Positions 9,128 to 63,700 of a stretch of 64,000 nt of DNA are shown here, in pieces (position 1 is the stretch's first letter; every line of letters starts with the position of its first letter). The notes below the pieces were generated by a model. The model searched no databases, had not been told where the DNA came from, and saw only the letters and a program-made list of their open reading frames with translations. Source of the stretch: Xiphophorus maculatus (Eukaryota > Chordata > Actinopteri > Cyprinodontiformes > Poeciliidae); NCBI RefSeq assembly GCF_002775205.1, contig NC_036459.1, forward strand, positions 6,641,466-6,705,465. The letters are read 5' to 3'. The position numbers and the translations under genes were made by a program.

Positions 9128-12100
9128 ATGAGGATCTTTTTGTGGCTCTTGTTCGGACTCTTCGTCCTCAAAGTGGTGGCGGCCAGTCCCAGATTTTCCC
9201 GGCAGGTGGACTTTGACTCATACAATACTGTTGACTATGATGAAAGAGAAGACAATTTTGAAGATAACTATGACTATGGGGAAATGACAGTTGAAGATCC
9301 TGAGGTAAGAGGTTTTAACTGTGCTCAAGCTTTCACAATCTGCATAAACACCTTAGCTTTTATTTAATGTTTGAAAATTAAAGTATTTTATTACTTTACC
9401 ATCAGTATGCATTTGATGAATTGGGGCATGATATGCTTCATTTTTGGACATCTCATTTGTTACAACAGAGATTGTAACAAAACCAACAAATGATGGTAAT
9501 TTTTTAATTAAAGCAGTGTTTTTGTTGAACGCGTGGTTTTGGGCTGAGGTCACGGGGTTCTTTGAGCAGACTGGAATGCTGCGGATGGCAACTGGAGTGA
9601 TTTGGAACATTGACAGATTTATTTCTTAGTGTTCAGTACAATTGAGCCAAACATTCCTCAGTTTATACTTTGGCCAGCCACTGTTATAGGGTCAATGCCC
9701 CAGAATCCTGCATGCACCTGGAGCCGTTTCAGCTGGAAAATAAATGAGTTGGCCCCGATAAGAGCCTCATTCTTCTTTGCCCTAGACTTGAGTTTTTGTT
9801 GAAGGCTGGGATTTTAGATACTCTTGTAAGTAAGCACACTTCTAATTTAAAATACATGAGAGTAAATGTAAAGTAGAAAGGTACAACTAAGACAAAAGAA
9901 GCATCCCTTGCATCCAATGGTTATAATATAAGCTTACTTAAATCGCTTATGAACACAAATATCAAATCAGCTATTCACAATGCATCTTGGCATGTAGACA
10001 TGGGGACTAGCTAAAGTTCATAATGAGCATCGGAATCGGAAAGAGAGTGAATATAAGTGACTTTGAAGGTGACATGGTTGTTGTTGCCAGACAGGCTCTT
10101 CTGACTATTTCAGAAAATACCCATTTTTAAGAAAAAACATTGAGTTTGCCGAGAATGACCCAAAAAAGAGAGAGAAAGCACCCAGTGAGTAGCCATTTGG
10201 TGTAAATGACTTATTAGAATGGTAAATCCAATTATTGAATATTGTTTAAATACCACGAACTAACTCTAACTATTGTTCCTGACCATGTCTATCCTGTTAT
10301 GATCATAGTTCATCCATTTTGTAACAGAGAAGTGCACCAAATGGCAAAGCTCAATTAATCCCAAACTACTTTCTTGAACATTTCAGTGAGTTCATTATTC
10401 CACAATGGAATACAAAGGTGATGGATTACATTTCACTATGATAGATCACCTGTAGTGATCTATCATAGTGAAACATCATGGATGTACACCTGACAAATGT
10501 TCTCACTGTGGAATAAAACCTGAGGAATCATTCAAACAACTTGTTGGAACTGTACTGATAAGAATGAGGGTCATCCTGAAGGGAAAAGGAAGTCCTACTT
10601 GGCACTAGTGCTCGACAAAAGTAGTCAGAGAGTGAATACTCTCTTCAAAAGGCTTTAACAGAGCCACGTCGTTGATATAAAATACAAGGAGTGATCAGAA
10701 AACAACAATCAGGTAAAATAAACCAATCTCAAAGCAATTACAATTGTGAGGCAGTACAATGGCTTGTACTTTTCCATTTCTAAATGGAAAAGTAAAAAAA
10801 GCTATTTTAAGCTGTGACCATTCTAATATTGCTGCAGCAACATGTTAGTACAGTATATTGACCTTAAAAAATACAACGTGCTTTAGTGCTGCTTTTGTAG
10901 ATTCACTGTTAAGTTGCTAGGCCTATCGTTACCACAAGAATGGGTTGCAGTTGAGGTGTGCTAATGACAAGAGCAAATTAAAAATGGCTCCCAGCAGCTT
11001 AAGCTAAATCATGTTTAAATTGATTTTGATGTGGCAACGCTGAGTTTAACCAGCATTACCAACCAAGGAAATTGGCCTGGCTTCCTCAATAAAACAAACC
11101 CTCTACATAAACTTTTCACGTGGCTCGCCATCCAACCAGCTTAAGCCAAGCATAATCTAAACCAATTTTAGTTGTTTTGTAAGGCATATTTACTGTGACT
11201 TTATGCCTTTTCTAGCCAAAACCACTGTATTTCTCCCCAAACAATGACTAAGAAATGTAATCACAGTCATTTTAAAGCTCTAATCAGCATGACTCCGTGG
11301 TGTAGTGTGAAATTGCACAGCTGAATTACTTCACAATTACTGAGCGTTGGGAAACTGCTGTTTTGCTTGGAAATCATTTGATAACAATTAGCAAAACAGA
11401 ATAATGTAGGATGTTGCTTCAGGCTTTGTGGCGTTTATTGTTCTTTTACTTTTCCTGGCTTCCTACACAAAGGCTACATAAATTTTTATGCTTTCCACAT
11501 ACCATAAACTCAAAGGTTTGACACATAATTGTAGTGCGGGGAAATCACCAGGGATCTGGAAAGTTTAGCTTTCTTGATAACACAGAGAAATGTGAAGGGG
11601 AGACTTTCAGAGGGTTGAAGAACAAATGTCTTTCATATACAAACATAGAATCTCAGGGGAGAAATGAGGCGGTGATGAGCTCCATCCCTGGAATGCTGAG
11701 TCTTTGCTTTTCATGGCCAACTCTACTTTGGCATTAACCTTCTTTCCCTCTGGGTTTTGTCTCTCTCAGTTGAAAATAAGCCTCATCTACATTGTTATTC
11801 AAGCAAATCATCCTCAGTCTGCTGAATTCAAATGCTTTAATCACCATCTTTGGACTCATTCATGCATTTTTTGTTTGCCCATGTCCTTTACTTTCACAAC
11901 TGAAGCAGCAAGTAACTTCAGATTTCTATATTTTTGCACTGTAGCAACATTTCTCTAACATGGGTGCATTTAGTCCTGATCTAAAACATTCAAAGAGTTT
12001 CCATGTGCATCTGTTTGGAAAGTTGCATAACAACTTACCCTACGTTCTGTTTCCGCTGAGAACATTGAAGTCATTGATCAAGTTTTTTGTGTAACATGTC

Positions 12101-15100
12101 TAAGATCAATATTCAGATGTTAATATGATCACAAAATGGATGATTATATTGTGAAATGATTTGATTTGAAGAATTGACGGGTTTGATCTAGGAACAGTTG
12201 CATTAACTTATGGACAATCTAGAAACAGTACAATGGCATTTCAAAACAAATACATCAATTTTTGCTTTCTGAGAGAAGACTTGACTGAATAAATTTAATA
12301 AAAGGAAGATAATTATCCCACAAATTAGGGACGTGTATCTAACAACTTTAAAAATCCTATGTTCATAACCTAAGATTTATGTTTATGGAGTGTGGGAGGA
12401 AGCTGAAGTACCTGGAGTTTGCATGTTTACAGGACAAGACACAAAGCCAGGGTTCAAACCCAGGACATTTTTAAAACTCCACTACATTATTCTGTTTAGT
12501 TCATACAAAACAATTAAAATCAAAACATTTTAAATATTATCCATTCCAGAAAACACATGACAAAATAATCCAGTCATTAGCCAACAACTAATCCCAGTTC
12601 AACACCAGTTTAAAATCTTCTTTGGCTACGGGATTTGTAATAATCTCGTAATGTAACAATGTTTTCTAGCTGGCCAACATTAACAAAAAGGGATTGTAAA
12701 ATCTTCTTGGGATGGTGTGTATGATCCGTCTAACAAAGTCAAAACATATCAAGGTATACAGAAATTGCAAAATGCAGGTAAGGCTTTAAAACTGCAAACA
12801 TTTGGTGTCGTACTCTTTCTGCAATACAAAGTGTTGGATGAACCAGTGTTTTTTTGTTGTTTGAAATGTAGAGTAAAAAAGGATGATACTCCATCCCCAC
12901 CTGTTGCTGAATATTGCTAGTTAGCTGGGGCTGTAGCCGAGGGTTACGTTTCATGGCGGTTTTACATACTTTTGCGATTTTGGTTTTTAGATGATGCACA
13001 CCTTTAAGTTGCGCTAAACTGTTTCATCTTGACAAGGAATTTCTCTTTACTACACGTTTTTAAATGATAGTCCTGAAATGTGGAAAGTTTCATTAAACTT
13101 TTTCAAAAGCGAGAGAAAGAATACCCCCCCAAACATGGATTTTTAATTATTTTTCTTTTGTTAGTCAACACTCATGGATAGTGATGATTAATGGATTAAA
13201 TTTTTTGGTTTTAACATTATGTATGGTGTGAATGATGATGCATGACAGGAAGAGTGAGGTTCTTGTTAGACACCTACAGTCTCATATCAGTTCCTCTGCA
13301 AGCTGAAATGTTTCAGAAAAGCTCTGCAGTCTTCTGGTTCCTGCTTTCACATTCTGAACACCTTAATGCAAGTTTATATTTTATTTTCCCATGCTGCTTT
13401 CAGAGCTCTTCTTTTATTTATCTGTTTATTTTTTGGTCGCTAGCCTTTAACCTCTTCTTTTCCCATAGGTATGTATGTTTGCTTTGGAGAAAGGGGAAAT
13501 GAAGGGGAGTAGTGCAGTGAACCAACACTGTACATGACTTTTCAAAGACTTACCTTGTTGTATGCCAATCTGTGTGTACGCTAACTTTAGAACATGACAT
13601 TCAGAGCTGAATATCGCTATTCTAGAATTTCTCCTGCTTGCTTTCTGGGTACTACATGTTCTACTAAGAATCTATTCCCTGGACTCGTTTCCAATGACAA
13701 ATCTTGGCTCATTGATATCTAAAGACATTCGGGTTGACTCACTTCCACAGATTCAAATTTTTGCAGCTACCATGTGTGTCTTGGTTCCACAAGGACCATT
13801 AGGGATTTTAGTGGGTTGAGTCATCTGGAGCGTCAGGTACTACCTGTGTGTGGGAGTTCATTACCCTCATCTGGAAAAATGATAGAACTGCAGGTTCCAT
13901 CAAACACTAGGATATCAGAGGGCAACTGCAAAGAAAAGAAATGCAGCTACAACACCACATGGATGTGCTCAAAGCTTTTAAGTCTCAAAAACTGCAATTT
14001 ATAAAGTTTTGCATGGTTTCCTATTTGTTTCCAACATTAAACTTAATACTGGTTGGCTTTGTAAACATAAGTGCAGAGAATTTTACTTATGATGGAATTT
14101 GTAATGTTAAGAATAGCAGAGACATTTTGGTTATCATCTTAAATGTTTACTTTTTTGTCTCAAAAAATATAAATTTAATGGCTACTCACTTGCTGTTGGT
14201 TTGCATAAAGCTGGAAACATTTAAAATTTGGGTATTTAACCAGTAATGTAGTAAACAGCAAGGTATTTTGTTTTTGGGGGGAGGGGATGTCGTTTTTTTT
14301 TTTGTTTGTTTTGTACAATAAATTGCTTTGCTAGAGAACATCTTTGTACATTTATACAATCAGAATATATGCATTTTCAAGGGAAAGCATCAATTACTAA
14401 CAGTTTAGGCCTTTTTTTTCTTCACATATAAATTCATCTGATCTGAGGCCATTTTTGACAGTTTGCTTCCATCTAGTGGTGAAAGATTTAAGACATTTAT
14501 CTTGGATTCCTGACCTTTGTGCAGGTGATAAAAGTTCTGTATAATGGTTGTTAAAATTTGTAAAGGTCTGAGTAACCTGTGCTAAGATTTTTGTTTGTGC
14601 CCAGTTTTATTAGATTAAATGTTTAATGTGCAAACTGGTCAGGCTTCTATAATAAATTCTATAAAGAATTCAGTTCATTTTACACCACAATTACATCTAA
14701 AATTAGATGTAGCTGATTGAATGTCACCCAGAAAACAACCACAAATTAAGGAAACGGTACATGCTTTTGTTTTTAAGTGATTAAAAAAGCAGGTTTTCAT
14801 ATGCAATTCACAATCTGGGGCAGTTGGGGGAAGAAAATCGCTTTAAAGTTTCTAACTTTCTTAAAATATAAAGTAAAAAAAAATAAAAAATTGGGTTGGC
14901 AAGAAAACAGAACCCATCCATCAAGAGACTATATATACTCTGAGGGAGTAAACAACATGAAACAAGACAGGTGTGATGATTAACAAATAAGGAGCAGGTG
15001 TGAAGAAAGCAGCAGGAAGCACCTTAAAAGGGAACAAACATTAACCATAGAGACAAAACAGCTTTGAAGACCAAAAAGGAACCTAATAATGTTTATGTAA

Positions 15101-18100
15101 ATTCATGACTTAAAATTATTCAATAATAACTGGATGGCAACAATGGTAATAGGCGTTTGTCCTGTTCATTATAATAGTTTACCAGCACCAGCGTATGAAT
15201 GGCGCTCAAACATAAGTAACAATTTTCCCCACAATGACTCTTTCTCAAAAATATATTTGGGCTCTCAGAATGTATTCTTCTTATGCAAATATTGTTTATT
15301 AGAATATTCTCTGTTAGAAAAACAGTTTAAAATGCCCTTTAATGAGCGAACAAAAATAATCCATGAGCACAAACCAGAATATGTTGGTAAAATGTAAGAG
15401 ATGTTGAGTGCTAGGGATAGGATTGAAACAGAGATACTTTATGTCTTGCCTCACTGCTAGTGTTTTTCTTTCAGCCAGAGATTGAGGAGCCGGATCGATC
15501 TGATTATAACTATCCTGAACCAGAAGTAGAAGCAGAAGAAAAGGAGGAGGAAGAGGAAGAAGAATTGCCTCTAAAACCTCAAGCTGTCCCTCAGGGTTCT
15601 GGTGGATCTGGTGTCCTCATGGGTCCAGACACAGAGAAAGGTCTGAAGAATATATAACTACTTGACGTATGAGTGCACGCAATTCAATAGAGGGCTCTAG
15701 AATTTCCCTTTCTTATTATGTAGTGAAAGTAGCTTTATTGGAATAACTGGGTATCCCACTCATCCTTCATCTCAACCCATCCTGGAAATTCTGTTTTCCA
15801 TTTGCATGTTATCCATTTAACTGGCAGTCAGTGGTTAAATGTGTTGTGTTGACTGTGTCTGTTTCTCATGTTCTTAACCCAATCATCATTGTTCTCCAAA
15901 TCTGATCAATGATCTGTTTCAGTCCTGTCTGTCTGTTTATCAGTACCTCGTTTTGTCTCTAACAAGAGGTGGAGCTGCGTCAGGCAACGGTCGATACTCT
16001 TCATGTTTCCGGGGATTTTGGAGGCTCTATAGGGTCCGGAGAAACTTCAGCAGCTTCCGGGGTCTCTGGGTCTGCCGTCTCAGGAGACATCCTGGTCTCC
16101 AGTGGCTCCGGGGATTTTTCTGGTGACATTATTCTGATACCTGGGGATCCAGAAGAGTTCATTATAATCAATGGATCTGGGGAGTTCTTGACAGGTGGGG
16201 ATCTCTTGATATCTGGGGACATCTCAGGATCTGGAGACGTCACTGGGTCTGCTTTTTCTGGAGCCTCGGGAGACTCTCTCCCTGAAGATTTGAAAATGGT
16301 CACTGAACTCCCTTTTGAAACCGGAGTATCTGGGGACCAGTCTGGCTCTGTGTTCTCTGGAGATCTTTTGAGCTCTGGGGCCTCTGGAACCTCTGGGGAT
16401 TCTGGGGACTCTATTGAGTCAGGATATTCAGAGATAACTTGGATATCTGGAGGTTAGTACCTTGAATGAACGTGTGATTCATGCTAATTAACTATTGTTC
16501 CATTTAACTGCTCTCTTCAATAATGTAGTTAAATGTTGACCTTAATTATTTGTGCAACACATTATGATTGTATTCAACTTTTTCACCACAATCATCAGTT
16601 TCTAACATATTGTTTCATTCTAAATGTGAGTGTGATTGATTGTCCCTCTTAACCTCCAACTCCTAACACCAACCCTCGGCTCTAACAAGAGGAGGAGCTT
16701 CTCCCTTCTGTAGATAAAATCCCAGAGGAGGCACTGAGTGCTTCTGGGACGCCCTCGGGAGACATTGACGCCTCTGTAGACATTGAAGCCTCTGTAGATT
16801 CAGAGGTCTCTGGAACCTCTGGACTTCCTAGTGTCTCTGGGTCAGGAGACATTGAGGTCCTTGTGACAATTCGACCCAGAGTACCAGAAGAAGGTCAGTA
16901 TCTAAGATAGAATTGTGTGTTGAAGACAAAGGAAAATGGAAGATTGGATCTTAGACACCCTCCTAACTTGTTTTATGTGGGTTTTTGTCTCAAGTACATT
17001 TTCTCTAACCTTGTTGGCAATTACATTTTATGTCATTAACCGAAAAAAGTGAGGTTCACGTAATCCTAATCCAGAAAAATGCATAACCACTTGTTTAACA
17101 CTGCTAAACTGCTTTGCTGCTTCCTGTCCCGTGTCCAGCTCAATCTAACCTTTTTTTAACACCTAATCTTGTCTCTAAACAAGAGGAGGAGCCGTTTCCA
17201 ACCACAACTGAATCCCCTCAGGAGGGGAAAACAAGTATAGAAGAAGATACAGGGCCCTCTGGCCTCCCATTGCCAGAGGAGCCAGGGGAGACCGAGGTTA
17301 TTGATGAAGGTCAGTACTGTTCAGGGCCTAATCCAGACTGGGAGTTTTAAAAGATCAAAGTCATAACAGGCAGTTGAACCAATGAAGCATAAAGGAAAAA
17401 GTGGAAAACCTCAAATATACTGTGACTAGAGATATTCAACACATGAAGTATGGTTTTACTGTAGTATTTGTAAATGCTTATGTTTGCATAAATGTTGGGC
17501 TTCTGGTCGTTTCAGTTTAAGAGGTGAGGGTTTAAACCATTCTGAACATCCTTAATCCTGCAAGAGGGCTTTTGGGATACATAAAGAAACATCTCCAGCC
17601 CTCTATGATTTATATTTGAATTCTGTTTCTATTCTTCTGTCCCTTTTCCCTCTCAATGTTTTCCAGAATTGCCTGTTTGCTTGCTGTGCATATGCCTCGG
17701 TGGCTCGGTCTACTGTGACGACTTGAAGCTGAACAGTGTTCCACCTCTGCCCAAAGACACCACTCACTTCTACGCCCGCTACAACAGAATCACAAAGATC
17801 AGCAAGTCTGACTTCGCCAACATGAGTATGCATCCCGTTTGAATGAAAATGTATGGTTAGTAGAGCAGAAATGTTCAGAAGCAAAGTTAACCTTTTCAGT
17901 GTTTACAACTCCAAAGTAGGTGTGAGCGGCCAGTGAACACACAGCATGAGTATCTGAGGATGATGTTTTATTGCCTTCTAGACAAGCTGAAGAAGATCGA
18001 CCTGACTGCTAATAGAATAACCTCCATTGAGGATAGAACGTTTATGGGCCTACCTGAGCTGGAGGAGGTGATAATCAGAGAAAATCACATCTCACAGCTG

Positions 18101-19448
18101 CCAGCCCTTCCCGAGACCATGACCCTGATTGATGTCAGCCACAACAACATTGGCTCAAAGGGTATTCATAAAGAGGCATTTAAAGTACGTACACCTTCTT
18201 CAGTAAATTTCTTTCAATGAGTACTTGTGTATGGTGGCAAAGTTGACAGAAAATTTGAGGAAGACTCATCCATTTTGCATTGAATGCTCTCATTTTAAGC
18301 CAGATTCCAAATACTGATTCTAACCAAACGGGGAAGCTATCATCAAAAGGTTTTAAAAGTGAACAGAATGACTTTCTATTGGATAGAAACAGATCAGACA
18401 AGTTAATGGCAACCACTTTGTCCAAAAAGACAGAGTTAATTGTATTTTATATAGGGAAGAAAAACAAAGCATATGCAAAGGTAATGGCAGCAACAACTTT
18501 GTAAATAACTCAGTCTAGAACAGGGGTGGAAAAGACCAGTTAGACAGCTACTATCCTGTAAATTTTAGATACATCCCTTCTCCATCAAACCTGAATCAAA
18601 CGAATGGCTTGGCTACCTCTGATCTCGAAAATAGACCTTTCTGTCAGAAAGGAAAACAAAAGAAGAGTTAATTATTTCCATTGGTAAAAACACACAGCCA
18701 AATGCAGAATCATAGAACCATGAGTACTTTCTTTGAAAGACAAACAAAGAGGACACAAAGTTCAAGGCAGCAATAGTTCCGCCCTGAAATTAGACAAATG
18801 CAGAACCAATGAGCATTACATATTATCCTGTAAACAATATACGGATAGTTACAATAGAAACTAAAAAAGTTTTGTTGTGCAAATGAAATTTTAAATCAAG
18901 TACTATCTTTGCTCTTCTCTGGATTACAGGACATGACTGGCCTGCTGTACCTTTACCTCACCGATAACAACGTTGATTATATTCCAGTGCCTCTACCAGA
19001 CAGCCTACGCTCGCTACACTTACAGGTGCACAAAATCTGGCTTCATATCTTGTTGTTGACTGCACACTAATGGAGGGGTATATATTTTTCAGTACAGGGT
19101 GATGCATTCTTTGAATTAAAAGTCTTTTCAAACAGAACAACCATCACAAAATAGCACAGCTCTCTTCTTGTAAATTGCCAAACTTCAAGATGAACGGGTT
19201 AGACTTCAGAACTAAATCAACTAGAATTTTCAAGAGACTAAATGACTAAAAAACCTTCTTTTCCTGTTCTGTTGCAGCGTAACAACATTCAGATGATGCA
19301 CGAGGACACGTTCTGCAACCTGAACGACTTCAACTACATCCGAAACGCGTTGGAGGACATCCGTCTGGACGGAAACCCCATCAACCTCAGCAAGACCCCG
19401 CAGGCTTACATCTGCCTGCCCCGTATACCCATCGGGAATCTCATTTAA
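9128..19448 (+). CDS. epyc: Epiphycan with enlarged Ser-Gly-rich domain (class III SLRP)
   Basis: Secreted chondroitin/dermatan sulfate proteoglycan core protein, known from growth-plate cartilage. Nine coding exons keep frame: 9128-9304, 15475-15640, 15967-16452, 16690-16893, 17184-17309, 17667-17825, 17982-18184, 18930-19025 and 19278-19448, giving 595 residues against 322 in human. A signal peptide of about 19 residues precedes an acidic Tyr-rich stretch suited to tyrosine sulfation (YNTVDYDERED, NYDYGE). Exon 2 has a Glu-rich run and GVLMGPDTEK, matching human GVLGPHTNE. Exons 3-5 add 272 residues with no human counterpart; exon 3 is dense in Ser-Gly pairs. The class III cluster Cx2CxCx6C (CLLCICLGGSVYC), about seven LRRs and the ending ALEDIRLDGNPINLSKTPQA identify epiphycan firmly. 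The untranslated leader is spliced in at 9121. Confidence 0.95.
10395..10520. repeat. Inverted repeat / fold-back MITE candidate
   Basis: Two perfect 19-bp arms, 10431-10449 and 10455-10473, are separated by five bases and could form a strong hairpin. The symmetry continues imperfectly outward (ATTCCACA near 10397 against TGTGGAAT near 10510). This is the shape of a small fold-back or MITE-like element, but no family was recognised. Confidence 0.5.
12380..12475. repeat. Decayed teleost interspersed repeat
   Basis: The words 'gagtgtgggaggaagctgaa' and 'agggttcaaacccaggac' echo the very common fish repeat with GTGGGAGGAAGCCGGAGTAC and a terminal GAACCCGGGACC-type box, thought to be LINE- or SINE-derived. 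The copy is diverged and its ends are uncertain. Confidence 0.4.
15967..17309 (+). repeat. epyc: Three tandemly duplicated epiphycan exons
   Basis: Exons 15967-16452, 16690-16893 and 17184-17309 are all phase 1-1 and divisible by three (486, 204 and 126 bases). Each follows a near-identical acceptor, TCTAA(A)CAAG, and each starts AGGTGGAGC or AGGAGGAGC, encoding E(V/E)E. Exons 3 and 4 are rich in SGD, SG and ASV(D/S) units; exon 5 is Glu/Pro-rich. The shared edges and symmetrical phase point to duplication of one ancestral exon, with the first copy then expanding internally. Confidence 0.75.
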
Positions 19449-20532: not shown

Positions 20533-21395
20533 CAAGTGCTTTGCTGAAGTATTATAACTAGGGATGCTCCGATCAGGTTTTTTTGCTGCCAATTCCAATA
20601 CCGATCATCCATGAGGCCGATCTCTGCCAATCACCTGAATTGGTTGTTGATTTTTCGCGTTAGGTGTAAATGCTGCTATGTGAGCTGGCAAAATTTAAAA
20701 ATTACCTAATTAACGTAAACATGCAACATACTTGCAGGCACAATGCAGCAGCTACTCAGTCAAAAGGACAACTGAAAAACCTGCAACCAGTTAAACAATA
20801 TTTAACAGTAAGGTTCTCTGTACCCTACATTATACATGAGTCAAATATGATTAAGGTTGCATCAAAATAAACAATCCCAAGTTACTAAATCCAAACATCC
20901 TAAGAGCACGGTTCCACACGACAGGATTTGTTGCCGTGCGCTTTGCGCAGTGTGAAGGAAAGAGGAGATCAGCTGCAGCCGCAGGCTGAGAAGTGAGATA
21001 AATGTGATCGGTTTTGGTGATCGGCAACAAGAGACCGTGATCGGCAATCACCAATCGTACACTTTTTCACCGATTATGATCGGTGGCCGATTGATCGGCA
21101 CACCTCTAATTATAACCCCTTGAATTTTACATTCTAAAACCCAAATTCAACATGTTTCACTGGGATTTTATGTGACAAACCAACACAAAGTACTATGGTA
21201 AATGATACATAGTTTTCTAAATGTTTTACAAATAAAAATCTGAAAAAACTTTCTCAACTGGGAGAGAGACTTATCCACTATTTTGTGTTGGTCTATTACA
21301 TAAAGTTACCATCGAAATGCTATGAAGTTTTTAGTTTTAAATTGACAAAAATAAAAATAATGCAACAGGTATAAACGCTTTTGCAAGGCACTGTA
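20533..21395. mobile_element. Old Tc1/mariner-like MITE, split by an hAT element
   Basis: The right end reads CTTTTGCAAGGCACTGTA (ending 21395), the typical fish Tc1 terminus. The left end is recognisable as AAGTGCTTTGCTGAAGTATTATAAC (20534 on), which continues after the inserted hAT element as CCCTTGAATTTTACATT. Both arms then share the subterminal motif TTTATGTGACAAACCAACAC, inverted near 21290. The element has no coding capacity left. Confidence 0.75.
20559..21108. mobile_element. hAT-type non-autonomous element with 8-bp target duplication
   Basis: The terminal inverted repeats TAGGGATGCTCCGATCA (left) and TAGAGGTGTGCCGATCA (right, read inward) bound a 550-bp element with several GATCGG subterminal words. 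A perfect 8-bp direct repeat, ATTATAAC, flanks it at 20551-20558 and 21109-21116, the diagnostic hAT target-site duplication. It carries no transposase. Confidence 0.9.
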
Positions 21396-21449: not shown

Positions 21450-23517
21450 TTAAATGTTCTCTGCCAATTTTTCCAACAAAGAAAGAACTCTCTCTCTTTT
21501 ATCCACTGCATCAGAGTTCATCACCTTGCTGTCTTCTTCCGTGATCTCCTCCGTTCTTTCTTTTTGCACCAGAAGTCTCTGCCACTTTGCTTTTTCCTTT
21601 TCCAGAACCAGCCTCTCGCTTCGCAGAGCGTCTCTGTCCTTCTCCAGCATCAGCTGCTCCCTCTCCATCACGGCCCGTTCCCTCTCCATCACTGCTCTCT
21701 CTCTTTCCATCACAGCCCTTTCCCTCTCCGTTACCGCCCTCTCCCTCTCCAGCAGCGCCCGCTCTCGGTCCAGAGCGGCTACGTCCTGATGCGGTTTCTC
21801 TCTTTGCATAAGCAGCTGTTCGCTCTTTCTCTCTCGTGGCTCGCAGTTCGTGCTGATATCCACCTCCGGAATGGAACCGTTTACCTCCTCACTTTCTGCA
21901 GGCTCTGCCGCAGCAGCCTCAACCTCATCTCCATACACCTGAACCTCAATCTCTGCAATACCTGCTGCCTCGTCTACAGCAGAAGACACCCCCATGTTGG
22001 AAACCTTTCTCCTTTTGCGTGTGGGTGCTATTAAGAAATCACTAACGTTGCTGTTATTAGGAAGGGCTTTCAGGATAGGAGCTGAACTCTGCAGTCGACC
22101 CTCCATGGCATCATCCATCAGGGAGAAGAAAGGCCATGATTGAGGCACCACTTTGACTCCTGCTGGAGGATTCTTTAACTCCTGAGGAGGAGTGAAAGAA
22201 ACAAATGGTCAAATGGTCAAACTTTTAACTCAACTAAGGCAACCAAATCTGTACCTTGTATCTCTTCTTCAAGTTTTCAAATTTTTTAGAGGCTTGACGA
22301 TGAGTCATCCTGTGATGCAAACCCATATGTTTCAGAATGGCCCTGAAAATGATATTATTTCACTGGATTAGCAACAGATATCAGTCTAGTTGTTTTAATA
22401 AGTGTACTAAAAAGAAGCAGTTGAAAAGTTAGTTGATCAAGTTAGTTACTGTTTCAAAAGACAGTTCAAAACGATACTGAATGTTGGGGGGTACTTAGTT
22501 TTTCAAATATTGCCTTTCCATGTTTATTTTATTTTCATTTAATAATTTGTAACAGTGTGGAGTCTGTAGTTTGTTTTGTGAACAGGAGATAAGACTAATT
22601 ACTTTTGGAAACTTTTAAGGACTAGAGTGGACTTTAATTGTAGTTTCATCTAACATTTTCTAAAATACCTTTGATGAAAGTAAATTATATGTATTGATTG
22701 TAGAACTGGGTGTTATGGATTGTTTTGAAACGTTGTTTTTGCTCAAATTGTATGTCATACATACCTCCATGCCCACTTGGAACTATTTCTCAATCCAGAG
22801 AACAGGTAACTGTTTGAGATCCGCAACTTCACAAAGTTTTCTATTTCTTTGTTGCTCACTGAAAAAATAAAAACAGGACAACAAGGGTTAAACACTGACA
22901 GGGTTCCTACACGTTTTCCAGTGCAAAATACAAAAATTAAAGTTGAATTTGAATTTAAGATGGATGGATGAATGAGTAAATAGATTGAAAAACAAACAGA
23001 AGACTGACTGATCACGTGGGTGGGTGGATACAACTTTTAATCTGTGTAAGAAAGCATGGAAAGAGAAATATATTTACAAAATCAATTTTCTCTTCATCAA
23101 TCGGGCCGTTAAATTACTTTAATCAAATTCCAGACTTCCCTCTACGTAGGAAGCCTATACTGATGATGACTATTGATGACACGAATCTTCGCCTTGCTAT
23201 TTACAACTTACTATCTTAAGTTATCATAAATTATTTTAATGTTACTTTAGTTCATAAAGACTTTGCTCATCCGCGGGCATATGGCTAAAGACCAGACTAT
23301 AATGAAATAAGTTGCAGTCGCTTTAATAAACACTCAAGTCTGATGTTAATACGTCACTATGTAGTAGCCTTGCTAGGTTGCTCCTAAGCTAACTCTGCCC
23401 AGTATATATAGCTTCGTTAAACCGCCATCACTTACTTTTATAAGTGAACTCCGTCGGGATAATCCCATCACACATGGTGTTGGTGTAGGCGTGATCTGGC
23501 TGTGCAGTTATGTCCAT
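21450..23517 (-). CDS. Myb/SANT-like DNA-binding protein with C-terminal coiled coil
   Basis: Unnamed, probably nuclear DNA-binding protein of the Myb/SANT-like (Harbinger-derived MSANTD-like) group. Exons in reading order are 23517-23436, 22858-22765, 22342-22255 and 22181-21450; phases fit and give 331 residues. Residues about 27-115 (NKEIENFVKLRISN, SSKWAWRAILKHMG, QASKKFENLKKRYKEL) form a trihelical Myb-like domain with the usual spaced tryptophans. A basic patch TRKRRKV follows (likely nuclear signal), then an acidic linker, then about 80 residues of coiled coil built on repeated seven-residue RERAVME units. A second methionine straddles the first exon junction (EFTYK-MSNKE) and could be an alternative start. 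I know no precise orthologue name. DNA target and role are unknown. Confidence 0.8.
21655..21765 (-). repeat. 21-bp coding minisatellite (RERAVME units)
   Basis: On the minus strand this encodes ERERALLERERAVTERERAV and then near-identical copies of ERERAVM, a tandem 21-bp, seven-codon unit. The period equals a coiled-coil heptad, so gain or loss of units lengthens the helix without breaking frame. Confidence 0.8.
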
Positions 23518-44911: not shown

Positions 44912-49127
<4,216 letters not shown>

Positions 49128-53089: not shown

Positions 53090-56000
53090 ATGCCTCTAAA
53101 TAATGAGCAACCCACTTCCACTTCCAGAAGTGAGGACCAAGGAAGTGACGTGGAGTCGTCGCTGGCCAGCGACCTGGACTGCTCCCGGGACAGCTTCAAC
53201 AGCGACAGCTCCAGCAAACACTGCACGCCCTCGTGTAAGTTAACTATCTGAGGTTTCGGTACTTATTTGCAAATGCATCACTGTTTCCTTTGTTTCCCCC
53301 TCAATTCATTTCTTGTACTTCTCTGTTTTGTCCACAAAGTTGAAAGTTTGTGTTGAAAATTCGATTTTACGAGAGATGCGTTTGCTAATGTTGTTTTCTT
53401 TTTGCAATAGTAATAGTTTCAGCGGCTGACCTTTTCCTGATTGTTGTCACACAGCTTTAATAATCCTGTGTTTTCATTCCGGCAGCGAGTCCGCCCAGAA
53501 TACTTCCTCGAGACGAAGTCATGGAGGCCGGGCGAGACCTTTTCAATCTCAAACTCGTACATGAGATTGTCGTTGGAGACGTTCGCGCGGAACTGAGTCA
53601 AGGACCACAGAACAGGTGCTTTACCCACTGAGTCCACCTGTTTCTGGCAAGAACTGATCAAAAGAGGAAAATATGTTTTTTCTTTAGTAGTGAAGAAGAC
53701 ATGAGCAGAAACAGGTGGTCAGGGATTGTTTTGATAAAAATCTCCCCGTTGTGTAGGAAGGTGTACTTCATCATAGGGTGTACTTAGTATTTCATTTGTA
53801 TCCACAGCATTATGTAAGGTAAATTGTTTATTTCTTTACAGTTTATGGAACATAGTAAGACAGAATCTCTACAAGGCCTTTTGGGACAAACTGGAGACTG
53901 AGCTGAATGAAGACCCACCTGAATATCAGCACGCCATTAAACTAGTAGAGGACATCAGAGAGGTTGGTGCAAAACTGGACGTTAACGGTTAAATGAAAAA
54001 AAAAACCCATAACATTTGGTCAGCATAAAATAACACTTGAACTGAATGTTTTGTCTTCTCCGGACAGATCTTGCTGTTGTTCCTCAACCCGGGTGCCAAT
54101 CGGATGCGGACCCAGATCATGGAGGTGCTGGACATGGACCTCATTCGTCAGCAGGCTGAAAACGACGCCTTGGACATCCAGGGACTCGCATCGTACATCA
54201 TTTCCACCATGGGGAAGCTGTGTGCACCAATGAGGGACGAAGAGATCCGGAAGCTACGAGAAAGCACAGATAACATAGTTACACTACTGAAGTAAGTAAA
54301 ACCCTCTGCCTTTATGTGTTTTAATGAGATACATTGTGACCAATTAATTTCAGTTTGCTTCTCCTCGTGCTCATAAGGGAGATATTCCGAGTTCTGGACC
54401 TGATGAAATTAGATAACGTCAACAGTACAATTGAAATCCTGAGGCCTCTTCTGCAGAGGAACAGAGTTGAATACCAGAGGCAACTTTTTCAGAGCATCCT
54501 GGACGATCTACCCAGTGAGTTAAAAAAAACAGAACAAAATAGAATTGATCATTTTGAACTTTGTAAAACAAACGCATCACAAAGTTGTAACCAAAACATG
54601 GCTTGTTTTCCAGCTGCTTTAAACCGCACCACCGCCTGGATCCAGTCAGCCCTGGAGGAGCTGCTGCTGGCCAGCTTCCCTCCAGAAAAACCTGACAATG
54701 CCGGGAAAGGTCAGCCGCCACTTCCTGGTCCCGTCCAAATCCTGAATGCTGCGTGCCTGCGCTTTCTCACATGGGACTTTTCTAAGACACTGGTCCCTGA
54801 GGTAATCTATTCCCTGATATATCTGATTATTTTATTTAGTTCTGCCTAATATCATACAGAAAATATTAGACACAAATTTACATTTAAATCCAAAAATGTT
54901 TGGGGGGTTTTATGTTTCAATCTTTTTTTTTTTTAGACTTGGGTGATGGACGAATACCGTCTAGAGGAAATTCAGCGGCAGCTCCGGCAGTGGGAGACAG
55001 TGAATGAAGTGCTGCTTATTGTGCACAGCAAAATTGGGGGGCCGATCCAGGGGGCCTCCTCGCTCTCCGACCGCCTGAAAAGGATGATCAGTGTTCTGTT
55101 GGAGGGCATGCACAAACCGTCAGTTCATCCTCATTTATTTCGCCACATTCAAACATCAAAGTTTGAACATCAAAGTTTGAATGTGGACACTAATGACCGT
55201 TTTCTTTTACGAAGAGGATCAAATGTGTGCTCTATTTGCAGGGACTTTAACCTGGAAGAAACACTAGAGGGCGTCGGTGCTCAGGTTTGCAGTGAGCTCA
55301 ACAAGTCTCTGACTGAGAGAAGCTGCCCTGCGCTGACCCCAGATCAGCAGGCGACCCTCACAGGACAGATCTGCAGCATCAGCCAGAAGGAGAATCCCAT
55401 TCGCACTCTTGTTGGTATGGAAAGTGACAACAGGAAGTTGTTTTTGTGCCTTTTTTAGTCGGAAGAAAAAGAGTTTTTAGAAAAAAGAATGTTTTGTGTC
55501 AAAAATGTATGAATTTATGGAATTTGATTTAAGAATTTTTCAAATCTGGTAAATTAAGGTCAAACTTCTTCTATTTCTGGACTTTTTTCCTTAATCCATT
55601 CTCTATAGGATGAGTTTTTTAAGAGATATTGTACTTATTTGGAACCACACATCTTTTATTCTTTTAGAAAAAAGAAGACTTGCGCGTTTTGATATATATA
55701 TCTATTAGACGTTTGCCAACATACTGTTTCAATTTCTAGGTTTTAAAAAGAAACCTAATACTTTTGCAGAGGACGGATAGATTTTCTAATATGCTTATTT
55801 GTGGAAAATTATGTTAGAAAAAAGCACATTTTCCGATCTTAAACCAAAAATAAATCTACCAAACATGTTTTTTAGTCATTTTAGTGTCCTGTTGTGGAAA
55901 GTCTGTGCAACAACTCCATGAAAGGTTAAAATCTTAATTTTTAAAAACATATCTATGTTTGAAAACATTAGTTGTTCTTAATGTTTATCTGGAGTGATTG

Positions 56001-58460: not shown

Positions 58461-60720
58461 AAGAAAATGAGCTAAATGACAATTTACGACAGTTATGAAA
58501 TTACTTGAACGCAGCATCAGTTTGCCCAGTTACAGATTCGTTAGTTCGTGAGTTCATTGCTCACGTGGCATAAATATCTTCATGTGATTGGTTGTCTCTA
58601 AACGAAGTCGTTGTTATTGTTGTTTGTCCCGGAAGCTTGAATCTCTTATTGGGCGTGTGTTATGTCGAAAGAGAAATAAATAAGAATTTTGTGGCTTGAG
58701 GATATCTTGAAAACGCGACATAACTTTGAGGACTATCTTTCAACAGATAGCTTAATATTTATTCACAGAAGATAGTAGTGAGTACTTGTTTTCTGCTACT
58801 TTCTTTGTTTCTGTTTACCTCGGAATGTGTGAACTTGTCGAGACATATCTTTAAATGGTCAAAGTGTATCAGATATGCTGTGGCAACACTGGCGTCATAC
58901 TTAAACTGTGGTTTTGTTTACTATATTTAGTCTGATAGTTCAGTTTCTCATTAACCATTTGAATTTAAGGACTTTTAAGAATAAGTTTTAAATGCTACAA
59001 GTTAGTCTTCCTAAAAACGTAACGCCGTTTAAAAACGCCGGATATATTTTTTTATATTTCAGTAACATCTGACGGTATTTATCGATACCTTCTCCTTCCT
59101 CTTTGTCTTCCGGTGTATTTGTCTCATCCTGTGTGAGTTGAAACTTTGTCCACATCATTTTCTGTCCGTCTCACTGTTATACTATTTTTACCATTGATTT
59201 CTCTGACAGTAATTTCTATTTTAATTAACTTATACTTTAATTGTTTAATTGTGACAATTTTCACAATTGAAACCTGGTCACACAGTTTCTTATTTGTAAG
59301 TTTGAAAACCATTTAGAGATTAGCCTATTTCATGAACTCGGTTTCTAAATAGAAGCCGAAGTATGATATAGAATTGTAACACACAATCATGTAGTTCATG
59401 CGAATGTAAAATTCAGATTCCCAGAATTTAAATATTTTTGCAATAATAATTAAAACCAAAAAAAAAAATGAATGCACCAATCATATCCATGCACTTTACA
59501 TTATTTGCACTCAATATCTGGTTGCTGCAACTTTTGTAATAATTATTGCATCAGTTGAGTGTTGCAATACATGTGATCTGTGCAATTCTTTTTCTGCTAA
59601 TAGCAGCGACCTTTTCTGACCTTCTTTCTGAGCTGGGTGTCAACTGCTGGCAAATCAGCAGACTTCTGCATTATTGTGTAGGCCATAAAATTTAAAACAA
59701 AAACAATTCTTATTAGTCTTGTGCGCAATTTCACCAGTTGTTTCCTAACTGGTATAATTTCCCCCCAAAGTTTATTTATGTTTTAAAGTGCATTTAAAGC
59801 ATAAATAAACTAAACTAAATAAAAGTAAAGGCAGTAGAATAATTGACGTATTTAGCAGCGTAACACTAGCTTACAACCAAAGCTGGGTTAGAACAAACCC
59901 AATTGCTCAGACATTCCATACATGGAAGAGATCGAGTAAAAGTAAACATAATCTAGTAAAGGGCAGAAACGGATAAATCAAATAATAAATATAGAGCCTA
60001 AAGGTATGTATTGCTCTCTCCCTCCACCCACACACACGGTAACAAGAATGAACAAAATTTTGCAACTTATTAGCACAAATTTTTAAATTTTATTGCATTT
60101 ACATGAGCGAAGAAGTTGGCTGCAGGTTTATTTTGTTGCTGTTTTTGGGTTTTTTTTGCTGAGGAAGTGGTTTTAATTCCAAAATAGAATTGAAGTAATT
60201 ATATGCTTTTATTATACAAGCCATATGACAAATTATTTAGAGCAGTATTAGTTGCATGTGGTAGTTTAAATCATTCCTTGAATCTGTTCAGCTTAAAAAG
60301 GTGCAGCAAAGTTTGTGTTTGTAAACAAAATAAGGTGAACATTTTGTATAATCATACAAAATAATTTACAAAAATATACTTATTGACAGAGGAAAGCCAT
60401 GTTTTGGTGAGAACTGACAGCTGAGTTAGTGAGAACTTTTCCTTGCAAAATTATAAGTGGGGAGAATAATTAATATTTCCAGCATTTTGAACAAATACAT
60501 ATTTAATTAACTCTATACATCTTTAAGTTAACGAAAGGTTTGGTCAACTTTTGGTGCGACACAAACTATAATTATGTGGGAAATATTCTGCTGAGTGTAA
60601 TTAAGTAGAGTGCAGAATCTATGTTGCTGTTGGCCCGTTTTCTCATCCCTGTTTTTGAATATGAATAAATTTTTTTCTGGGGGGTTTTTAGCATCTGAAT
60701 GGTCTGTGACCTCAGCACTG

Positions 60721-63700
60721 ATGGCGCTGCAGGAGCGGACCCGGAGAAGTCTGCTGCGCTTGCGCCACCAACTGGAGCAGGACATCAAGCCACAGGACCT
60801 CATGGACCACATGATCAGCGATGGTGTGATCACTGTGGATGAGGAGGAGAAGGTCCGGATTAAGGTGAGCCAAGTCAAGCGACGTTGAAAGGCAACTAAA
60901 CTACTTCTGCCCCAACCCTCCATTTGTTTCAGTGTTTGTGATTTCTTTCTGCAGCCCACCAGAAAAGACCAAGCTGCAGCACTGATCGAGCTGCTGCTGA
61001 GGAAAGATGATCGCTCCTTCATTTCTTTCTATAATGCACTGGTTAAAGAAACGTACTACGATCTGGCCAAACCGCTGTATCAAGACTTACCAGGTGTCTC
61101 CTTCAATGGACGAAAGGGCTCCTTTGACAGCTCCGAAACTTCCGGTGAGAAGTGAGAAATTGTGGAGTTTCTGAGTTTCACCCTAATGTTTTCTGCATTC
61201 TAAATCCGGATACTTTATAGCAACTCTTTTCTGTTTTCCTCAACAGTTCAAATTATGCTGAGTGAAGGTGGCGTCCCACAGAGGCCTGTGGTGTTTGTGA
61301 GCAGACCAGAGCTGCTGAATCAGGTCAGGATGAAACTTGATTTGCTTCAGAAAGATGCCGGCGGCTGGGTTACGGTGTTCGGCATGGCCGGGTCAGGAAA
61401 GTCTGTGCTCGCTGCCGAGGCTGTCAGAGACCAGAGACTCATCGAAGGTGGAAAACTAAATAACTCAAAGAAAACATGAACTCTAGGTTTTGGTAAATAG
61501 GGGTTATTGTTCCTTTTTCTCACCTCTTCCCATCTCCTGCCCACAGAGTGTTTCCCCAATGGGATTCATTGGCTGTCCATCGGTCAGCTGGACAAATCAG
61601 ACCTGCTGGTGAAGATTCAGTCATTGTGTTTTCGCCTGGAGCAGAACCTGGATTCCCAATCGCAACAGCGGCCGCCCACCTCTCTGGATGAAGCAAAGGA
61701 GCGCCTGCGCTTCCTGATGCTGCGCAGGTTTCCCAGGTAAGCTGGATGTTCCTCTGGATCGAGTGATCATCTCTGTTAGATAAATATTATTATTTATTTC
61801 CTTATTTTAAAAAATATGTTTTAAACTAGCAGTCATTTTATATGTTATCAAACAGTAGTGGTATAACCAGGTGTAATATAAAGATCTGATTCAGTTTTAT
61901 TTTCTGTCCCTTAAAGAAACGTTCAAACCTTTTGTATTTTATTTTTTCATATTTTTGACATGTTACAACCCCTAACTACGGTATTTTACTCTGATTTTTT
62001 TACTGGGGTTCTTTGTGAGTTACCAGAATAGTAAATTATTTTTGAATTGTGTAGAAAACAATATCTGATTTTTTTTCCCCTCAAAAATCAGAAAACACCT
62101 GGCTTGTATTAAAATTCTCCCCATTTACTGTGATACCCCAAAATAAAATCCAGTGCAGCCAATTTTTTTAAGAAGCCTATTTATGCTGTTTTGGTATTAT
62201 GTCTCCTTTTCCTTAAAATTGCACTACTTTGTGTTGGCCGTGTTGAAATTACAATAAAATACATTGAATGTGACTAAATGTTATGAATTCTTTGGAAGGT
62301 TCTGTAGTTCTGGAATGAAAAGTAAATTACAGTATTGTTCATGTTCATATCTTTAACTATCTTTTTTGTTTTTAGATCTCTATTAATCCTCGATGACATC
62401 TGGGATAGCTCGGTGCTCAAAGTGTTTGATATTCACTGTCGAATTCTTCTGACCACCAGAAACAGAAGCCTCACTGATTCTGTTAGCGGTATGTCGTCTG
62501 CTCTGAATGCATGTCATTTTCTTTGTTACAGTAAGAAAAAAATACAGCAACTCTACCCACACTATGTGTATTATCTGCTCTTGTGCTTTCATATTTTAGG
62601 TGCCAAGTATGAGGTGGAAGTAGAAAGTGGTCTGGATGACAGAAAGGCGCTGGAGATCCTGGCCCTGTACACTAAAATGAATCAAAACGCGCTTCCTGTG
62701 GAGGCTCGCGACATCGTCAAAGAATGTAAAGGTCTGTAAACTGAAAAAAGACAAAAAAAAATTTTAAAACTGGCCTCTGACATTCCAGTAAATTTACACT
62801 TTTAAACTGTGGTTTTACTCCACACATCGTCTGCCTCTCAGGCTCTCCTCTGGTTGTGTCTCTGATCGGCGCTCTGCTCAAAGACAAACCCAACCGGTGG
62901 GATTACTACCTCCGCCAGCTGCGGCAGAAGCAGTTCAAGCGCATAAGGAAGTCTTCGTCCTACGACTACGACGCCTTGGATCAGGCCATGGCTGCAAGCA
63001 TCGAGGTTTTACCTGACGAACATCGGGAACTCTACAAAGACCTGACTGTGCTGCAAAAGGACGTCAAGATCCCCGCTAAGGTTTTTCTATGCAGTACACT
63101 CCTGTCACACTTTTCAATTCATCATGAACACAGAGAACAAACAGCTAAACATTCAAAACTGACAGTTAATTTTCTGCAGTGACTGAATTTTATGACTTTG
63201 ACAAAAATTCATAAGAGAGGCTATAAGTTTCTTTTCCTTCATCTTCCAGTATTGTCCTTTACTTGCTGGTGTCTTGAAAAGTAACTTAACTATTTTATGA
63301 TCTAGATCAAAAATAATAATAAGAAAAACATAAACGACTCCTCTTTCTTTTCTTGTAGATATTGTGTGTTTTGTGGGATTTGGAGCCAGAGGAAGTGGAA
63401 GACATTCTCCAAGAGTTTGTCAACAAATCCCTGCTTTTTGTAGACAACAACAGTAGACTGAACCTGTACTACCTTCACGACCTCCAGTTGGACTTCCTGG
63501 TGGAGCAGAACCGAGATCAGATAGAGGTTTGGCCCCTTTCTTTTGTATCTTAACATGCCAACTCTAAATAACTCTGATTATCAAAAAAACGAGCAGACAT
63601 TGTGTTACCTGATCCTTTGTTATATCTAAAATAAATACAACTGGACAACAATTTCAGGTTTATTGTTAATCAATAATATCCTGCCACATTTCAGAGTCTT

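Follow-up and report, generated by a model that had tools for sequence, protein, structure and literature searches.

Epiphycan is a small leucine-rich proteoglycan (SLRP) of class III, whose N-terminal cysteine cluster is defined as Cx2CxCx6C (PMC6293640), and a tyrosine-rich acidic N-terminus is described as a trait of epiphycan (PMC7310474). Its gene lies in the dcn-lum-kera-epyc cluster (PMC11917481), and the mammalian protein (PG-Lb, DSPG3), which the platyfish protein studied here resembles in its class III cluster and in its predicted glycan type, belongs to the dermatan sulfate/chondroitin sulfate (DS/CS) type (PMC12730261). PMC7310474, citing Zhou 2006, mentions that epiphycan has long splice variants in ray-finned fish; that study used the short variants and left the long ones out of its alignments. 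Zebrafish dspg3l goes back to Zhou, Shirabe and Kuwada 2006, through the citations in PMC7310474 and PMC2763122. According to PMC9458601, epiphycan is among the proteins on which the canonical chondroitin-sulfate linkage region was found in wild-type zebrafish, and the primary paper leaves epiphycan unnamed in the main text and places its list in the supplement (PMC7758351). This chondroitin sulfate could be attached to the short form's own two Ser-Gly (QGSGGSGV), rather than to the domain described below. As for expression, zebrafish epyc is weak in notochord and strong in parachordal cartilage (PMC10665197), and in midshipman fish an epyc transcript is abundant in the saccule of the three sexual types, with very low levels in females in winter (PMC4641692); PMC6953315, PMC3669298 and PMC2763122 offered expression or citation only. 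Among the literature matches listed, a Ser-Gly-rich epiphycan domain is named in no title or abstract opening. Here we describe three cassette exons of platyfish epyc, e4-e6, which from their sequence are probably an alternatively spliced chondroitin/dermatan-sulfate attachment domain.

RESULTS

The window analysed is a 64,000-nucleotide stretch of the Xiphophorus maculatus genome, and positions refer to it unless a contig or locus is named. epyc consists of nine coding exons on the plus strand, from 9128 to 19448, and the introns between them are GT-AG. Exon e2 (9128-9304) contains the start codon, a signal-peptide-like start and a Tyr/acidic N-terminus, and the acidic exon e3 (15475-15640), which ends in GPDTEK, contains both Ser-Gly of the short form. 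Then follow the cassettes e4 (15967-16452, 162 codons), e5 (16690-16893, 68 codons) and e6 (17184-17309, 42 codons), the last being rich in Glu, Pro and Thr. Exon e7 (17667-17825) encodes the class III cysteine cluster and the first repeat, e8 (17982-18184) and e9 (18930-19025) encode leucine-rich repeats, and e10 (19278-19448) encodes the last repeats, an N-glycosylation motif NLS near the C-terminus and the stop codon. The product is 595 aa long with e4-e6 and 323 aa without them, the difference of 272 aa being residues 115-386, and so the initial annotation, which had placed three in-frame exons (15967..17309) between the GPDTEK exon and the cysteine cluster of a 595-residue protein, was right in coordinates and counts. 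Without its first 19 residues the 595-aa product has a calculated mass of 62 kDa, although acidic proteins often migrate as if larger. Because e4, e5 and e6 are in phase 1 at both ends, any of them could be retained or omitted without a frameshift.

Skipping all three leaves a 323-aa product that still has the class III layout and is close in length to human epiphycan, which has 322 aa; we know of no mammalian counterpart of the three cassettes. The cysteine cluster of this short form, CLLCICLGGSVYC, found at residue 119, follows the pattern Cx2CxCx6C, and residues 20-118 hold 6 Tyr and 34 acids, in keeping with the Tyr-rich acidic N-terminus of epiphycan. In a Pfam scan of the 595-aa protein the region after the cluster matched LRR_8 (E = 1.8e-22) and related families; LRR and LRRNT were the only families found, and the link module that would mark an aggrecan or other lectican was absent. 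Opticin is the closest solved structure to the core (E = 6e-71, residues 116-321 of the short form). At the closest paralogous locus found, on C20 (opticin or osteoglycin), none of the 7 plus-strand frames listed in the 9.7 kb ahead of the cysteine exon exceeded 3 Ser-Gly, the list comprising frames of at least 25 aa with at least 2 Ser-Gly or more than 20% acids.

The surroundings of epyc are those of the SLRP cluster. A plus-strand frame at 665-1540 has LRR and LRRNT matches and the class II cluster Cx3CxCx9C, and from its position we take it to be keratocan. Upstream, the same strand carries more LRR frames (C17:6632828 and C17:6579203), and we presume, again from position, that these neighbours are members of dcn-lum-kera; the class II frame together with the upstream LRR frames places epyc in the dcn-lum-kera-epyc cluster. 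Downstream of epyc, at about 20560-21110, GATCGG-like words are repeated near both ends by eye, and this piece may be a dispersed repeat. A 252-aa frame on the minus strand (21453-22208) consists of tandem RERAVME-like repeats without a Pfam match at E up to 0.001, and looks like the last exon of a minus-strand gene just downstream of epyc. Farther along, Pfam domains mark a DEP-domain gene (47667-48296, minus strand), a gene with Tcp11 domains (54340-55455, plus strand) and a CARD and NB-ARC gene (60601-61476, plus strand), presumably depdc4, tcp11l2 and apaf1.

The three cassettes share their 3' splice junction. At e4 (15957..15976) intronic CTCTAACAAG meets exonic AGGTGGAGCT, and at e5 (16680..16699) the same CTCTAACAAG meets AGGAGGAGCT, so that both acceptors carry CTCTAACAAG followed by AGGNGGAGCT; at e6 (17157..17192) the same junction has one additional A, and its likeness to e5 extends 27 bases into the intron. 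An exact search of the 704-Mb genome found the 17-base junction core, CTAACAAGAGGNGGAGC, at only two places, e4 and e5, the e6 version being off the pattern by its extra base. In local alignments of the acceptors, the three pairs among e4, e5 and e6 scored above 500/500 shuffles, and among the remaining 12 pairs none beat all shuffles, the best (e6-e7) being equalled by 3/500 and aligned at non-matching positions. The shared junction, the acceptor alignments and the two genomic occurrences thus indicate that the cassettes are local duplicates which carried their splice site along. The duplication is visible at the junctions only, because the protein match between e4 and e5 is weak (best E 0.013). 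A dispersed-repeat origin of e4-e6 was ruled out, since both genomic copies of the 17-base junction lie at epyc. Searched against the genome at E up to 1, the 272-aa domain found its own three exons only (5/5 candidates scored), in a search of low sensitivity.

The same junctions bear on how the cassettes are used. The acceptors of e4, e5 and e6 end in AAG, versus CAG or TAG at the five other acceptors of epyc; AAG acceptors are uncommon, and this would fit regulated inclusion of e4-e6. They lead directly into the purine-rich AGGNGGAGC, which we suppose might be a splicing enhancer. The alternative that survives best, although we consider it unlikely, is that inclusion is constant, the 595-aa form being the sole product and no splice switch existing. 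The donors of e4-e6 (GTTAGT, GTCAGT, GTCAGT) would allow this, being by eye at least equal to the e3 donor (GTCTGA). However, each cassette can be skipped in frame to leave a product that is still class III, the AAG acceptors set the cassettes apart from the other exons, and PMC7310474 mentions variants of either length, short and long, in ray-finned fish.

The content of the cassettes points to glycosaminoglycan attachment. Together they encode 30 Ser-Gly, 16 of them as SG[DE]: 23 in e4 (13 SG[DE]), 6 in e5 (2 SG[DE]) and 1 in e6. The first exon had been credited with about 23 Ser-Gly in 162 residues, many followed by Asp or Glu, and the count is 23, with 13/23 directly before Asp or Glu. Asp or Glu lies within four residues of 26/30 Ser-Gly, which bears out the expected closeness to acids, and acids near Ser-Gly are the described setting of xylosylated serines (PMC8418075). 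When the residues of the 272-aa domain were shuffled (n = 2000), the mean was 7.3 Ser-Gly (maximum 15) and 1.5 SG[DE], and 0/2000 shuffles matched either observed count. For e4 alone neither the SG nor the SG[DE] count was attained in 2000 shuffles, and for e5 alone the corresponding figures were 0/2000 and 32/2000. Exon e6 is not enriched, as the count of its single Ser-Gly was attained in 526/2000 shuffles, and the Ser-Gly excess is confined to e4 and e5. Pfam found 0 families at E up to 1 in the domain alone, which on a charge-hydropathy plot falls on the boundary, outside the clear disordered range.

The same composition could be read in another way, namely that e4-e6 are translated but glycosaminoglycan is attached to few of the serines, or to none, the domain being a bare acidic spacer or having serines that are phosphorylated or bear short O-glycans. 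Fam20C-type phosphorylation uses the motif S-x-E, and the domain has 5 S-x-E and 16 S-x-D, with a net charge of -50 over its 272 residues. In addition, none of its 30 Ser-Gly sites fits the nematode attachment motif [DE][GA]SG, and according to PMC8418075 occupancy is not shown by the motif alone. We nevertheless consider this reading unlikely, to a slightly greater degree than constant inclusion. Against it, acids lie near most of the Ser-Gly, the same wording recurs in the fish's aggrecan-like exons, and PMC9458601 states that fish epiphycan bears chondroitin sulfate.

To compare the domain with a chondroitin-sulfate region of the same genome, we turned to its aggrecan-like loci. Link-module matches are clustered, on one strand each, at C4:2468513-2473694 and C2:26899012-26903458 (six rows apiece), which, from the layout of aggrecan, we take to be its two module pairs. 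Past the last link match, by 226 and 1053 bases, there is a long Ser-Gly-rich frame on the minus strand, with 58 Ser-Gly in 500 aa (L048:8189-9688) and 42 in 388 aa (L050:7697-8860), respectively, and the ends of these frames may contain intron. Ser-Gly per residue is 0.142 in e4 and 0.110 in e4-e6, compared with 0.116 and 0.108 in the aggrecan-like frames (L048 and L050), and SG[DE] per residue is 0.080 and 0.059, compared with 0.026 and 0.028. The densest 162-residue windows of the aggrecan-like frames hold 30 and 27 Ser-Gly versus 23 in e4, and hence epyc matches the aggrecan-like average and not its peak. When 242 frames of at least 100 aa were ranked by Ser-Gly density in 256,929 bases that had been chosen by searches and are not a genome survey, e4 took six of the top ten rows, its loci overlapping, and the two aggrecan-like exons took the other four; the next had 0.04 per residue. 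The two aggrecan-like exons differ from each other, and one contains an SGDQSGSGDQ repeat run.

The domain therefore resembles the aggrecan chondroitin-sulfate exon in Ser-Gly per residue and in wording such as SGSGD. It differs in its higher SG[DE] per residue, in being 272 aa in three exons instead of a single frame of 500 or 388 aa, and in its core, since the aggrecan-like exons adjoin link modules and epyc continues into a leucine-rich-repeat domain. The earlier proposal of an aggrecan-like proteoglycan built on an SLRP core is supported in part, namely for the attachment region, which has CS/DS attachment features and an equal average Ser-Gly density, but the likeness is limited to that region, the link module being absent by Pfam. 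Genome searches from either domain gave no link to the other that would speak for shared descent. Their sensitivity is low: one aggrecan-like exon as query found itself and 10 weak others, missing the second aggrecan-like exon and epyc, and so these searches do not amount to proof of convergence. In silico trypsin digestion placed 29/30 Ser-Gly of the domain in three peptides of 105, 62 and 54 residues, one peptide holding 14/30, and sites in peptides of this length would probably escape trypsin-based glycopeptide surveys.

By frame, phase and codon tests e4-e6 look coding. The used frame stayed open in 4, 40 and 329 of 2000 dinucleotide shuffles of e4, e5 and e6, respectively, which do not preserve internal repeats, and e4 is composed of short imperfect repeats. 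The minus strand across e4 is open as well, for 150 aa, and hence frame length alone is weak evidence. The codons add to it. Nine different codon pairs encode the 23 Ser-Gly of e4, and around the modal pair TCT GGG the in-frame one-step variants in e4-e6 were 13 synonymous and 3 replacing, compared with 6 and 12 possible changes (nominal binomial P = 1e-4); in e4 only, they were 10 and 3 (P = 0.0016), and around TCT GGA in e4-e6 they were 19 and 4 (nominal P = 4e-6). Since the repeat copies are interdependent and the choice of modal pairs came from the same data, this synonymous excess supports selection on Ser-Gly without proving it. That e4-e6 are never used, being a repeat-rich intron stretch open by chance, would suit the repeats of e4 and its open minus strand but is very improbable: three exons in a row are open, agree in their 1-1 phases and are bordered by GT-AG, few shuffles keep the frame open, and the Ser-Gly codon pairs show a synonymous excess.

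DISCUSSION

We therefore return to an alternatively spliced CS/DS attachment domain as the preferred reading of e4-e6. The cassettes would add an attachment region, acidic and probably flexible, that separates the acidic N-terminus from the leucine-rich-repeat core. Alternative splicing is suggested by the short and long variants of ray-finned epiphycan that are in print, and the shared AAG 3' splice sites are a plausible control point for inclusion. Many of the Ser-Gly with acids close by would be expected to receive chains started by xylosyltransferase, and the cassettes would then switch epyc between a form with 2 sites and one with roughly 30. The short form would be an ordinary small leucine-rich proteoglycan, and the long form may be a bottle-brush held on collagen through the repeat domain, adding fixed charge and water to the matrix of cartilage, notochord sheath or ear.

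A more far-reaching version of this model, which we put forward as tentative and rather less than an even prospect, is that splicing makes one gene yield either a 2-site SLRP or a chondroitin-sulfate carrier of about 30 sites and aggrecan-like density, which would tie swelling charge to collagen instead of hyaluronan in the notochord, cartilage or ear of fish; tandem exon duplication within the SLRP gene would have given rise to the domain, and convergence to its likeness to aggrecan.

The long form of platyfish epyc appears to be a genuine variant on a known theme and not a novel type of molecule. Long fish epiphycan is already known: the long ray-finned form and zebrafish dspg3l come from the same gene, for which a longer and a shorter splice form are described in ray-finned fish, and the long form of Zhou 2006 is likely to contain this Ser-Gly-rich domain. 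The claim of the initial annotation that the domain was gained in this fish is weakened accordingly, since PMC7310474 refers to long variants in ray-finned fish as a group. What is added here is the anatomy of the exons, their duplicated junction, a Ser-Gly density on a par with that of aggrecan-like exons elsewhere in this genome, and the tryptic blind spot. The last of these is a practical warning for glycopeptide surveys, and at least one comparative study has put the long epiphycan forms aside (PMC7310474). If the model is true, a few phase 1-1 exons would confer the behaviour of a large proteoglycan on a collagen-binding SLRP, and fish may tune the charge of their matrix through splicing.
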